From a virus, in the IMG/VR virus record IMGVR_UViG_3300015242_000048, positions 1 through 20,138 of that record: DNA of 20,138 bases; one strand, given 5' to 3'. Positions 7,031 to 19,425 of this stretch are shown here, one piece after another. Below the pieces are notes generated by a model. It searched no databases. It was given only the letters and a program-made list of their open reading frames with translations, and was not told the DNA's origin. Each line of letters opens with the position of its first letter. Position 1 is the first letter of the stretch. A program made the translations under genes and the position numbers.

Positions 7031-7750
7031 CTAACTCGATAATGTTTTGTCTTGAAGTGTACGAACATATGTAGTCATACGATCAAGCACCCCTAAATCA
7101 CGCAACGTCTTGAAAATGATATTATTCTGATCATACTCCCCGCCGCGCTTGAGACCAGCAGAGCGCATGTCTTTTAGACGATCTTTCAGCATCTTGAATT
7201 TATCCAAGGATGCATTCTTCGAAATTAGATGATCAATTTGGTCGATGAATTTCTGGACCTTTGATCTGAAGGCGGATGATTCAACATCAACTACCGGAGG
7301 AGTTTCCGGTCGTGTGATCCAATGATTGTTGCGGACAGAATAGACACCTTGACTCTTTGGATGTCCCTCGGAATAATCCTGCACATATCCTTCGACCGGA
7401 AGCCCGGCGATTTTGACGTGATGCTCCAGACCCCATAGACTCTTTTTGGTTTGAAGCAACTCATCGACCAATTCACGTTTGCCCAGTTTGTTTCGGTCAA
7501 CCAGTAGATGAACATCAAGATCGCTTTTATCGGTATAATTGTAGCCAGCCGACCCACCGACCAGAATCACATCATCAATGAGGTTCGGTGGAATTTTGGC
7601 ATAGGCCGCCCATGTATCGGCAAAAGACAATATTTTGGTGCGAATCTCCGGACGAAGTTGGTCATTTTCCCACAGAACAGGATTAAGTTCCGTGTGAAAT
7701 CGTGCAGTTGTTTCAAAATCTTCAACCAAAAACCGAGCAAATTTCTTCAT
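7031..7750 (-). CDS. Pol-beta-superfamily nucleotidyltransferase-like protein
   Basis: A 239-aa protein with a clear nucleotidyltransferase core at residues 63-85. LVGGSAGYNYTDKSDLDV contains the GGS helix signature and the D-x-D metal ligands (D77, D79), followed by HLLVD. A third acid may be E120 in PVEGYVQD. The N-terminal helix MKKFARFLVEDFE and the C-terminal helical region (MLKDRLKDMRSAG) flank it. Such proteins are common in large phages, but their substrate (tRNA, protein or other RNA) is not established. It is the first gene of a minus-strand pair with the endolysin. A CTAAATA box lies only 5 bases before its ATG. Confidence 0.85.
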   Translation of the reverse strand: MKKFARFLVEDFETTARFHTELNPVLWENDQLRPEIRTKILSFADTWAAYAKIPPNLIDDVILVGGSAGYNYTDKSDLDVHLLVDRNKLGKRELVDELLQTKKSLWGLEHHVKIAGLPVEGYVQDYSEGHPKSQGVYSVRNNHWITRPETPPVVDVESSAFRSKVQKFIDQIDHLISKNASLDKFKMLKDRLKDMRSAGLKRGGEYDQNNIIFKTLRDLGVLDRMTTYVRTLQDKTLSS

Positions 7751-9061: not shown

Positions 9062-9525
9062 CGGCGAATGGCCTTGATTGCAGCCACGACACCTACGGCT
9101 GCGGAAGCGCCAATGAAAAAGGATTGAAAAATTGCCAATTCAACCGTTCCCCATGGTTCAGGAAGGGCAGGAATATGCCATGAGCCAACTTGATGCTGAA
9201 CAATCCATGGTATCCACCATCCCGCCTCCCAATCGATAACCCACCGCGAAGAATCAAGCACAACTTGCCATTCATGCCATACGAATGGAATCAGTATCAA
9301 GGCCATGAAAATCGTCATCGGCCCCCAATTCCCTTCCTTCATTCTGATTTGAGCATTTAGCTCATCGGCCTTGGTCGCCGCTGCGAGCCCCCCCGCTGCA
9401 ATGGTACCCATGGTTTGTGTATCCACGATATGGGTTTGCAGTTGAGCATCGACGCGTTTGTTTAGAAAATCAAAAACTGGCCCAATTATACCTTTCAGAA
9501 ACCCGAAAACCAACTCCCAGATCAT
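9058..9525 (-). CDS. Probable holin (GTA-type 3-TM holin family)
   Basis: A 155-aa membrane protein. An amphipathic N-terminus (WELVFGFLKGIIGPVFDFL) is followed by a soluble helix region rich in Ala and Lys, a hydrophobic segment after NWGPMTIFMALILIP, a Trp-rich amphipathic stretch (about residues 96-125), and a last hydrophobic segment (FQSFFIGASAAVGVVAAI) ending in basic residues. The order resembles the three-segment holin family of gene transfer agents in alphaproteobacteria. As a holin it would permeabilise the inner membrane and release the GH19 endolysin. The ribosome-binding site is AAGGGAGA and a CTAAATA box lies 22 bases upstream. Confidence 0.65.
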   Translation of the reverse strand: MIWELVFGFLKGIIGPVFDFLNKRVDAQLQTHIVDTQTMGTIAAGGLAAATKADELNAQIRMKEGNWGPMTIFMALILIPFVWHEWQVVLDSSRWVIDWEAGWWIPWIVQHQVGSWHIPALPEPWGTVELAIFQSFFIGASAAVGVVAAIKAIRR

Positions 9526-13848: not shown

Positions 13849-13875
13849 GATTGGTCATGATGGGAGAACATGATC

Positions 13876-14724
13876 ATGGATGAAATGGATATTCCAGATT
13901 TTTTACAGCGGAAAGGTAAGATTTGGCCAATCGCCACATCTCTACCCGAAATGAAATCGAAGGCCGCTGAAATCCCCTTACCAGAAAATATAGAAGTCAA
14001 TCGAAAGGAAATCATTGCAAAGGGAATGCGTGAAAATGCATCGCGCTACATCACCGAGATTAATGGTTTTTTTGATGACGTTGTTTTCCTAGGTAAGGAT
14101 GTCGATTTCTCTCCCTACGAATATTTCCGTGTTAATGAAATTAAGGGTAGACATATCGATCTCATTATTGAGTTCTTTAGTCCTCAATTGAAAGAAATCG
14201 AAATTCGAAATTCAGATCCGCAATTGAAGGAAGCCTATCGCGGATACAAGTCTACTGAGATCAGAACCATCATCATGTTCTTTTCGACGTTGATTGATGA
14301 TGCTACGCGATGGTGTGATAGTCAGAGTGCTGCCAAGGGGCCGCGCAAGAAACGTAGAGTGATTATCAAGCCTGAGAAGAAGGTCAAGAGCATCAAGTAT
14401 CAGCGAGAAGATCGTGAACTGAAGTTGCTCAGCATTCCTCCAGAGAAGATTATAGGAGCACAGGAATTGTGGACCTATAACACCAAATACAAACATTTGA
14501 CCAGATATGTGGCTCGAACGCGCACCGGACTTTCCATGAAAGGCACAACATTGCAGGATTTCGATGTTGACAATTCTTGTACAAAAGTGCTTAGAAAGCC
14601 AGATGAGATTTTGGGAGAAGTCCTGAAGTCAGGGAAGAGGAAGATTTTGGATAATCTCAAAACTAAATCTATTATTCCCACTGGGCGCATCAATGATAAG
14701 ACGATCCTATTGAGGGCATTATGA
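13876..14724 (+). CDS. Conserved phage protein of unknown function (282 aa)
   Basis: I recognise this as a conserved hypothetical protein of T4-like phages. The start at 13876 has GGGAGA at a good 8-base distance; an ATG at 13870 is too close to it. The protein is mostly helical and basic: a short DFLQRKGKIWP opening, a middle helical region (EIRTIIMFFSTLIDDA), then a lysine-rich linker (GPRKKRRVIIK). The C-terminal domain has PPEKIIGAQELWTYNTKY, then RTGLSMKGTTLQDFD and LRKPDEIL. The conserved C-terminus looks like a folded beta-rich domain. No function can be assigned. It has its own promoter at 13820 and its stop overlaps the next start (ATGA-type). Confidence 0.82.
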   Translation: MDEMDIPDFLQRKGKIWPIATSLPEMKSKAAEIPLPENIEVNRKEIIAKGMRENASRYITEINGFFDDVVFLGKDVDFSPYEYFRVNEIKGRHIDLIIEFFSPQLKEIEIRNSDPQLKEAYRGYKSTEIRTIIMFFSTLIDDATRWCDSQSAAKGPRKKRRVIIKPEKKVKSIKYQREDRELKLLSIPPEKIIGAQELWTYNTKYKHLTRYVARTRTGLSMKGTTLQDFDVDNSCTKVLRKPDEILGEVLKSGKRKILDNLKTKSIIPTGRINDKTILLRAL

Positions 14725-18093: not shown

Positions 18094-18120
18094 AAACTCT
18101 CATTCAATCTGGAGTTTTTG

Positions 18121-18483
18121 ATGGCAGAATATTGGGGTTGGCATCTTCTGCTGGACATTCAGTCCTGCGATATCGAATCGATCAAGTCAAAAGAGAACCT
18201 GAAAAACTTTCTGACTGTGCTGGTTAAGCGCATCGAGATGGTTTCTTTTGGGCCACCCATGATTGAACATTTTGCTACTCATGATCCTGAGAAAGCTGGA
18301 TATTCGATTGTACAACTGATCGAAACCTCCAACATCACTGGACATTTCGTTGATAAGACTGGTGATGCCTATATCGATGTCTTTTCGTGCCTACAATTCC
18401 AGCCTGATGACGTGATCGCGGTGGTTCAGGAATTTTTTGCTCCACTCAAGATCACTGACAAAATGATTTTGAGATTGGCATGA
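18121..18483 (+). CDS. speD: S-adenosylmethionine decarboxylase-like (SpeD-type) proenzyme
   Basis: A 120-aa pyruvoyl-enzyme-type protein of the prokaryotic SpeD fold. It starts WGWHLLLDIQSCD, as SpeD does. The key segment LIETSNITGHF and DAYIDVFSC keeps all three catalytic positions at the same spacing as Thermotoga S63, H68 and C83: S70, H75 and C90. The residue before the cleavage serine is Thr instead of Glu. The family normally self-cleaves to form a pyruvoyl group and decarboxylates AdoMet for polyamine synthesis. Phage SpeD homologues with this ITGHF form are known, but some SpeD relatives use ornithine or arginine, so the substrate is not assured. The ATG at 18121 follows GGAG. Confidence 0.85.
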   Translation: MAEYWGWHLLLDIQSCDIESIKSKENLKNFLTVLVKRIEMVSFGPPMIEHFATHDPEKAGYSIVQLIETSNITGHFVDKTGDAYIDVFSCLQFQPDDVIAVVQEFFAPLKITDKMILRLA

Positions 18484-18581
18484 TTTGGATTCATGTCATC
18501 TGTGCCTGCTTTGGAGCCCTGATATTCGCGATGCCGATAATGTTCCCCAATACTGTTGACATTGTGGACATGAATCGCTAA
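18480..18581 (+). CDS. 33-aa membrane peptide
   Basis: A 33-aa peptide in an ATGA overlap with the SpeD-like gene. Residues 3-22 (WIHVICACFGALIFAMPIMF) form one hydrophobic segment and a short polar C-terminus follows. Its last codons overlap the -35 and -10 of the tmRNA promoter. It may be a real small membrane protein, but its size limits certainty. Confidence 0.5.
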   Translation: MIWIHVICACFGALIFAMPIMFPNTVDIVDMNR

Positions 18582-18584
18582 ATA
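18556..18584 (+). promoter_or_regulatory. tmRNA promoter: TTGACA with a TAAATA -10
   Basis: Perfect TTGACA (18556-18561), a 17-base spacer and TAAATA (18579-18584), embedded in CTAAATA (18578). The -10 is the same box as the putative late promoters, but only here is it preceded by a consensus -35. It could therefore serve host sigma70 and the phage late sigma. Predicted start near 18591. Confidence 0.6.
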
Positions 18585-18984
18585 GAGCTACTTGATATGG
18601 CGACAGGCGCCGTTCAGCTTCACCAACTAGCTACACATCGGCCGTATGGTAGAATAGGGAAAGCTTAGTGCGTGCTGGGTTCGGAGCAAATTCTGAATCG
18701 AACACATGAAAAGAGAGGTTCCGCCATGTTGAGTATGTTGATCGTTGATAGCGTTCGATAACTGTACAACACGGGAGGGCAGTACTCCCCGCCTCCACCA
18801 TGAGCAGCCTACGAGTCTTCTCGATTGCTTACCCGTCGATGTAGACAAGCTGGGTTGGTAAGAACGTCAGGCCTCTCTTATGGGGGTTGGGCTGTTCTTG
18901 ATGGGGGCGAAACAGGATCGATTGACAGTGAAGTGTTCGCTGGAGGTTAACTGGTTTGCCGACTACGGCACGGAAATAAATGTC

Positions 18985-19026
18985 GCCGCAAATGACAACA
19001 ATGTGGATCTCGCCCTCGCGGCCTGA
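18985..19026 (+). other. tmRNA tag reading frame AANDNNVDLALAA
   Basis: The tag frame reads GCC GCA AAT GAC AAC and ends GCC TGA at 19026, giving AANDNNVDLALAA (or ANDNNVDLALAA if GCA is the resume codon). TGTC lies just before GCC, comparable to AGTC before the resume codon in E. coli. The ANDN start and the -LAA end are typical tmRNA tag features; -LAA is the ClpXP degron. Confidence 0.88.
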
Positions 19027-19030
19027 TCTA

Positions 19031-19083
19031 CTGGGCCATGGACTGGCCTAGAAACAGAAGGGGGGCTTTGGTCCCTCAGTCCA
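19031..19083 (+). other. tmRNA pseudoknot at the end of the coding piece
   Basis: CTGGGCC (19031-19037) pairs with GGCCTAG (19045-19051). The loop bases TGGACT (19039-19044) are complementary to AGTCCA (19078-19083), forming a pseudoknot around a small GGG/CCC hairpin. A T5 run directly follows and may end transcription. Confidence 0.75.
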
Positions 19084-19090
19084 CTTTTTG

Positions 19091-19164
19091 ATCGGTGTGG
19101 TGTAACGGTAGCACAATGGTCTCCAAAACCGTTAGTAGAGGTTCAAATCCTCTCACCTTTGCCA
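19091..19164 (+). tRNA. tRNA-Trp (anticodon CCA), mismatched acceptor stem
   Basis: D-stem GTGT/GCAC, anticodon stem ATGGT/ACCGT with loop CTCCAAA (anticodon CCA), T-arm AGAGG TTCAAAT CCTCT, discriminator G and encoded CCA are all present. The acceptor stem ATCGGTG with CACCTTT pairs only at 5 of 7 positions: 2:71 is T-T and 3:70 is C-T. It begins 1 base after the tmRNA T-run. It may be processed from the same transcript. Confidence 0.85.
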
Positions 19165-19350: not shown

Positions 19351-19425
19351 GCAGGTATAGCTCAGTGGTAGAGTCCTAGTTTTCCAAACTAGTTGTCGTT
19401 GGTTCGATCCCAATTGCCTGCTCCA
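19351..19425 (+). tRNA. tRNA-Gly (anticodon UCC)
   Basis: Complete cloverleaf: acceptor GCAGGTA/TGCCTGC, D-arm with AGCTCAGTGGTAGAG, anticodon stem CTAGT/ACTAG with loop TTTCCAA (anticodon TCC), T-arm GTTGG TTCGATC CCAAT, discriminator T and encoded CCA. It would read GGA and GGG codons. It starts immediately after a TAA stop codon. Confidence 0.95.

Follow-up and report, generated by a model that had tools for sequence, protein, structure and literature searches.

A phage-borne circularly permuted two-piece tmRNA gene whose tag most likely begins with valine

Does a T4-like phage carry a ribosome-rescue RNA of its own and, if so, which peptide tag does this RNA encode? We addressed this question in a window of 20,138 nucleotides, the whole stretch of viral DNA that was analysed (IMG/VR record IMGVR_UViG_3300015242_000048), for which a preliminary description had claimed a circularly permuted tmRNA. 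Upon comparison with Rfam (cmscan), we found two matches above the gathering cut-offs, the first to tmRNA_permuted (RF04321; 18737-19026, 77.2 bits, E 1.5e-13, cut-off 47), with an alignment that spans the full model (1-213 of 213), and the second to alpha_tmRNA (RF01849; 18687-19069, 69.9 bits, E 1.6e-17, cut-off 50), the model that the preliminary description had named for this comparison. Membership in RF04321 agrees with the score, with the permuted order of the halves and their 7-bp stem containing G3-U70, and with a tag frame that has both a resume site and a stop codon; for RF01849 the cut-off is passed, but with a score well under the 143-313 bits of the bacterial alpha tmRNAs above it (n = 86). 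ARAGORN missed the tmRNA and called only the neighbouring tRNA-Trp and tRNA-Gly. Chance is excluded as the source of the feature because of the E-values and the comparative evidence given below, and we conclude that it is a real circularly permuted two-piece tmRNA (ssrA) gene. The claim of such a gene in a T4-like phage is thus borne out by both Rfam matches, by related viral contigs and by T4-type genes.

Table 1. Features of the tmRNA locus and its surroundings (window coordinates)
Feature	Position	Strand	Basis and remarks
Promoter TTGACA (18556-18561), 17-nt spacer, TAAATA (18579-18584)	18556-18584	+	Motif comparison with relatives
5' leader of the precursor, putative start to acceptor half	18591-18736	+	Predicted; without an Rfam match of its own
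Acceptor piece	18737-18800	+	5' halves of inter-piece helices, T arm, acceptor 3' strand, A73, CCA; sequence reading, Rfam and comparison
Intervening segment, presumably removed	18801-18902	+	Ends form a helix beside the acceptor stem
5' part of coding piece	18903-18981	+	Acceptor 5' strand, D-analogue, helices to acceptor piece, stretch up to resume site
Tag reading frame VAANDNNVDLALAA and stop UGA	18982-19026	+	Most likely resume codon GUC 18982-18984; sequence and comparison
3' pseudoknot	19031-19083	+	CUGGG/CCUAG and UGGACUGG/UCAGUCCA, conserved AACAGAA
tRNA-Trp (CCA)	19091-19164	+	Rfam and ARAGORN; adjoins tmRNA in RNA gene cluster
tRNA-Gly (UCC)	19351-19425	+	Rfam and ARAGORN; RNA gene cluster
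CTAAATA sites	5054, 7762 (-), 9554 (-), 18087, 18578, 19478		

Direct reading of the sequence confirmed the anatomy that had been described, with a CCA-ending acceptor half (to 18800) lying upstream of the GGGGGCG half (from 18903), a 7-bp acceptor stem with G3-U70 and a pseudoknot. The acceptor 3' strand CGCCUCC (18790-18796) is followed by A73 and an encoded CCA (18798-18800), and it pairs at 7/7 positions, G3-U70 included, with the 5' strand GGGGGCG (18903-18909); the T arm (GGGAG/GGCAGUA/CUCCC) occupies 18773-18789, and the tag frame closes with its UGA at 19024-19026. The pseudoknot is found 3' of the tag and contains an extra hairpin in the window (19060-19077); in relatives it occurs at the same position with AACAGAA, its stems altered but compensated. 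Eleven pairs are also attained in 24% of shuffles; the pair count is therefore indecisive, and it is the position and the AACAGAA motif that support the pseudoknot. As for the extent of the gene, the tmRNA does lie in the span 18591-19089 first assigned to it, but the homologous acceptor half starts only near 18737, and 18591 suits a transcription start instead. Between the pieces lies a spacer of 102 nt with a terminal helix containing a 10-pair run; among viral spacers of at least 26 nt (n = 85), a terminal helix of at least seven pairs was observed in 82%, versus 7% in shuffles. Such a helix would make the precursor look like a lengthened acceptor stem to processing enzymes.

We then examined the phase of the tag. 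Across 79 viral tmRNAs outside the valine group, an A at position -4 before the resume codon is present in 79/79 and a U at -5 in 71/79. In the grouping made here as the Val class (UAAAU|GUC GCN GCN AAY GAY AAY), whose pattern the window matches, UAAAU precedes GUC, not GCC or GCA, in 19/19 tmRNAs, the window included. Tag starts at GCC or GCA were rejected, as they break the otherwise invariant A-4. Because only the GUC phase keeps U-5 and A-4 in the Val class, we take GUC at 18982 as the most likely resume codon and read the encoded tag from this context as VAANDNNVDLALAA and not AANDNNVDLALAA; the tag first described is two residues short. ARAGORN, where it detects close relatives, as it does for many, independently reads VAANDN... 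with the start at GUC. The alanine carried on the tmRNA would precede the encoded residues, giving (A)VAANDNNVDLALAA.

Adaptor and protease (SspB, ClpXP) recognise such tags by their AANDN motif and ALAA end, both of which the window tag retains. Because they are retained, an ordinary ClpXP degron is the simplest reading, and the tag is probably such a degron and not a redirecting one; the earlier suggestion that a tag different from that of the host redirects tagged proteins is disfavoured, both features being kept as in host-type tags. A related alternative, in which the longer Val-led tag would serve the phage by altering the fate of tagged proteins or the speed of their degradation, draws on the Val leader plus two codons being seen only in viral contigs and on the variable middle of the tag, and we regard it as unlikely given that AANDN and ALAA are preserved and that a valine first codon is natural in Helicobacter pylori (GUA) while GUC works in E. 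coli, so that the chemistry is not new (PMC2862035).

Upon examining the spread of the valine start, we found it to be common to 30 viral contigs with several differing tag bodies. Exactly VAANDNNVDLALAA occurs in 14 contigs besides the window's own duplicate, and a VELALAA variant in two; in many viral contigs the same tag is spelled by differing sets of synonymous codons. The Val-class contigs (for example L204, L209, L216, L219 and L231) share with the window the resume context UAAAU|GUC and the tag VAANDN..., but differ from it in their spacers (5-295 nt) and acceptor stems, and most of their flanking genes are not common. A bacterial source was sought in 84,980 prokaryote species genomes by a pattern-based search, which leaves bacterial tags written in other codons outside its reach, and of its 26 matches none lies in a tmRNA. 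Additionally, 385 alphaproteobacterial genomes were scanned with two mismatches allowed; the 11 matches were scattered, none of those comparable with the genome's own tmRNA coinciding with it, and a valine-first tag was found in 0 of 28 alphaproteobacterial tags read. We tentatively suggest, at somewhat less than even odds, that the window tmRNA is part of a lineage of two-piece tmRNAs confined to viruses, in which the resume point moved two codons upstream to valine with AANDN and the degron end kept, and in which the RNA would be made from a strong promoter and the phage tag used instead of the host's during infection. Separately, several Val-class loci hold genes called as tRNA-Pyl (CUA) (L212 3789-3866, L228 5998-6075, L219 4957-5031, L230 1713-1789 and 2222-2296), which are possible amber-suppressor tRNAs; the tags of those tmRNAs end with UAA.

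To compare the stems, 101 non-identical viral tmRNAs were gathered from related contigs and two pattern-based sets, with both halves located in 98. G3-U70 is invariant in 98/98 of these, in a survey that demanded at least 6/7 acceptor pairs, and so are G1-C72, G2-C71 and G7-C66, whereas pairs 4, 5 and 6 change on both sides with the stems remaining fully paired, as in GGGCCGG/CCGGUCC, GGGGAUG/CAUCUCC and GGGGCCG/CGGCUCC. The T stems likewise vary yet stay fully paired. Since the loci L002-L121 had been preselected by GGGGGCG, it is the Val class and the L122-L189 set that carry the case for compensation. Furthermore, among viral contigs reached through an unrelated window protein (13870-14721), 15 of 30 contain a permuted tmRNA above the cut-off. 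G3-U70 is the alanine identity element, and a tmRNA that is charged would need it to stay invariant while its neighbours change.

These patterns bear on the possibility that the gene is a host ssrA copy, decaying or captured, that has no function in the phage, a reading that would fit the alpha_tmRNA score far under those of bacterial genes (69.9 vs 143-313 bits), the failure of ARAGORN to detect the gene and the long leader. We consider it very improbable, as every functional element is intact, the stems are compensated, G3-U70 and A-4 are invariant across divergent viral tmRNAs, and the same tag recurs in different synonymous codons in many viral contigs. Compensated acceptor stems together with an invariant G3-U70 argue that viruses keep their tmRNA genes working, and not as relics.

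Turning to the genomic context, we observe T4-type genes in the window (primase, ribonucleotide reductase and RNase H), and a second, overlapping record with 100% identity extends further, to a T4-type helicase loader and single-strand binding protein. The T4 capsid family was found above the cut-off in 7/20 related contigs. Host DNA contamination or a chimeric contig, conceivable for a metagenomic contig of 20 kb, can in practice be dismissed, since related viral contigs conserve the tmRNA, some of them with a T4 capsid gene, and phage genes flank it on both sides in the 100% identical, longer-reaching record. An S-adenosylmethionine decarboxylase-like gene lies at 18118-18483, directly upstream of the tmRNA promoter.

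A search for SmpB (PF01668), with a positive control, found none in ten related records, among them two contigs of about 135 kb and three complete phages, the window's own record being a fragment. The related records thus give no phage trans-translation system with its own SmpB, and host SmpB is presumably used. With no phage SmpB found, the phage tmRNA would have to share that of the host, a point that also speaks for a decoy, in which the phage tmRNA would occupy SmpB or ribosomes and damp host trans-translation. There is a precedent in the tag-less tmRNA-like RNA of mycobacteriophage DS6A, reported to damp trans-translation when expressed in E. coli (PMC11915505). The window gene, however, retains a complete tag frame with a stop and degron ends, which a decoy does not need, and we judge this explanation highly improbable.

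Next, we investigated the promoter. The window -35 element is TTGACA with 0 mismatches at a spacing of 17, followed by TAAATA as a weak -10, a layout like the TTGACA-17-TATAAATA of relatives, in which a perfect -35 occurs in 30 of 65 distinct promoters (0.1 expected by shuffling). Overlapping the -10 is CTAAATA (18578-18584), a phage promoter-like motif that occurs 6 times in the window versus 1.7 expected, with 0/100 shuffles reaching six. At five of the six sites a gene begins shortly downstream; these genes include two leftward ones with starts at 9525 and 7750, and the endolysin gene comes next after the one at 7750. TTGACA accompanies CTAAATA only at the tmRNA site. CTAAATA is a likely late promoter element of the phage, and it is a reasonable hypothesis that host-type and phage late promoters both drive the tmRNA. 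A promoter of the purely late T4 type had been suggested by TATAAATA about 66 nt before the CCA in relatives; it is weakened because nearly half of the relatives have a perfect TTGACA 17 nt upstream, and we keep it only as a possible dual early/late arrangement. TATAAATA was found upstream of 0/19 bacterial tmRNAs sampled. The distance from promoter motif to CCA is 213 nt in the window versus about 66 in relatives, so that the leader is longer than theirs, and position 18591 would fit a transcription start below the promoter.

Overall, we favour an intact phage-borne permuted tmRNA of the alphaproteobacterial structural type that works through host enzymes for ribosome rescue and tagging, with a probability of roughly 0.8. 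Of functional trans-translation, the sequence displays the identity elements G3-U70, A73 and CCA only. The precursor would be transcribed from about 18591, its spacer ends pairing to prolong the acceptor stem; the spacer would be cut out by tRNA-processing enzymes of the host, with RNase P acting at 18903 and 3' trimming to the CCA at 18800, leaving two pieces held together by base pairing. G3-U70 would direct alanine charging, host SmpB would deliver the tmRNA to stalled ribosomes, and translation would resume at GUC 18982; upon addition of (A)VAANDNNVDLALAA the ribosome would be released and the product passed to host ClpXP. For the phage, the benefit may be that ribosomes are kept free while host RNA is destroyed; rescue that stays active during host shutdown, as first proposed, may be a role as well.

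When comparing with known systems, we find that bacterial two-piece ssrA of Alphaproteobacteria (RF04321/RF01849) shares with the window the permuted order, encoded CCA, G3-U70, T arm, inter-piece helices, ALAA tag end and 3' pseudoknot with AACAGAA, whereas the window differs in its much lower score, Val resume codon and two-codon leader, phage gene context, long spacer with a terminal helix and extra hairpin in the 3' pseudoknot. The tmRNA of Helicobacter pylori likewise resumes at valine (GUA; PMC2862035), but is bacterial and has a different tag. Methylophilales phage Melnitz and Pelagibacter phage HTVC008M are also T4-like phages with a permuted tmRNA, but their tags, ANDNYVPVDYALAA and ANFNEYALAA, are without the Val leader. 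Melnitz has TTGACA-17-TATAAATA upstream of its tmRNA, as do the window's relatives, at a site that its authors call an early promoter, and differs from the window in a glutamine riboswitch (PMC9004378). No permuted tmRNA was found in Caulobacter phage Cr30, Ochrobactrum phage OC, cyanophage S-PM2, Agrobacterium phage Atu_ph07 or Pseudomonas phage PA5oct, and the 'tRNA-TERM' of Sinorhizobium phage phiM12 was rejected as a hidden tmRNA half, there being no model match in the phiM12 record. In Stenotrophomonas phage DLP_6 (L200), we observed a permuted tmRNA at 102838-103059 (136.8 bits, tag ANDDSFAPMAIAA), which is not mentioned in the accessible part of the DLP_6 genome paper.

Spacers of other viruses hold small frames. 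In another viral group, a spacer of 159-183 nt between the halves encodes a conserved, probably membrane-spanning microprotein of 38-44 residues with the core WSICAD, accompanied by an overlapping upstream small frame (..DEEP..) (L107, L113, L022, L037, L052, L058, L084, L094; L302-L381). The microprotein is encoded at 80 loci, 4 of them cut off; of the 76 evaluable ones, 66 are situated within a permuted tmRNA and 10 outside one. Pooled values (pS 0.62, pN 0.18) place it under protein-level constraint. It has no match in PHROG or phage records, and we found no description of it in the literature. A spacer-encoded protein was rejected for the window, whose 102 nt contain no plausible frame. 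Unrelated small frames with ribosome-binding-site-like sequences occur in the spacers of L230 (295 nt), L096 (239 nt), L020 (247 nt) and L201 (Melnitz, 142 nt), and those of L179 and L183 contain a T-arm-like GGUUCGAAUCC, suggestive of a tRNA that decayed within the spacer.

Two-piece tmRNAs of phages have seldom been studied, and most known cases come from marine isolates. They are already established: of 133 unique structures of phage tmRNAs in a survey with ARAGORN, 53 are two-piece (PMC9004378), and the tmRNA database has 79 phage sequences (PMC11915505). The window gene joins them with a tag start that has so far turned up in viral contigs alone. As ARAGORN misses the window tmRNA, surveys based on it undercount. 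The Val-led phage tag provides a signature by which mass spectrometry could distinguish, in infected cells, tagging by the phage from tagging by the host, the expected end of tagged peptides being AVAANDNNVDLALAA under the GUC phase and AANDNNVDLALAA under the phase first described, and this signature makes the role of phage tmRNAs directly testable.
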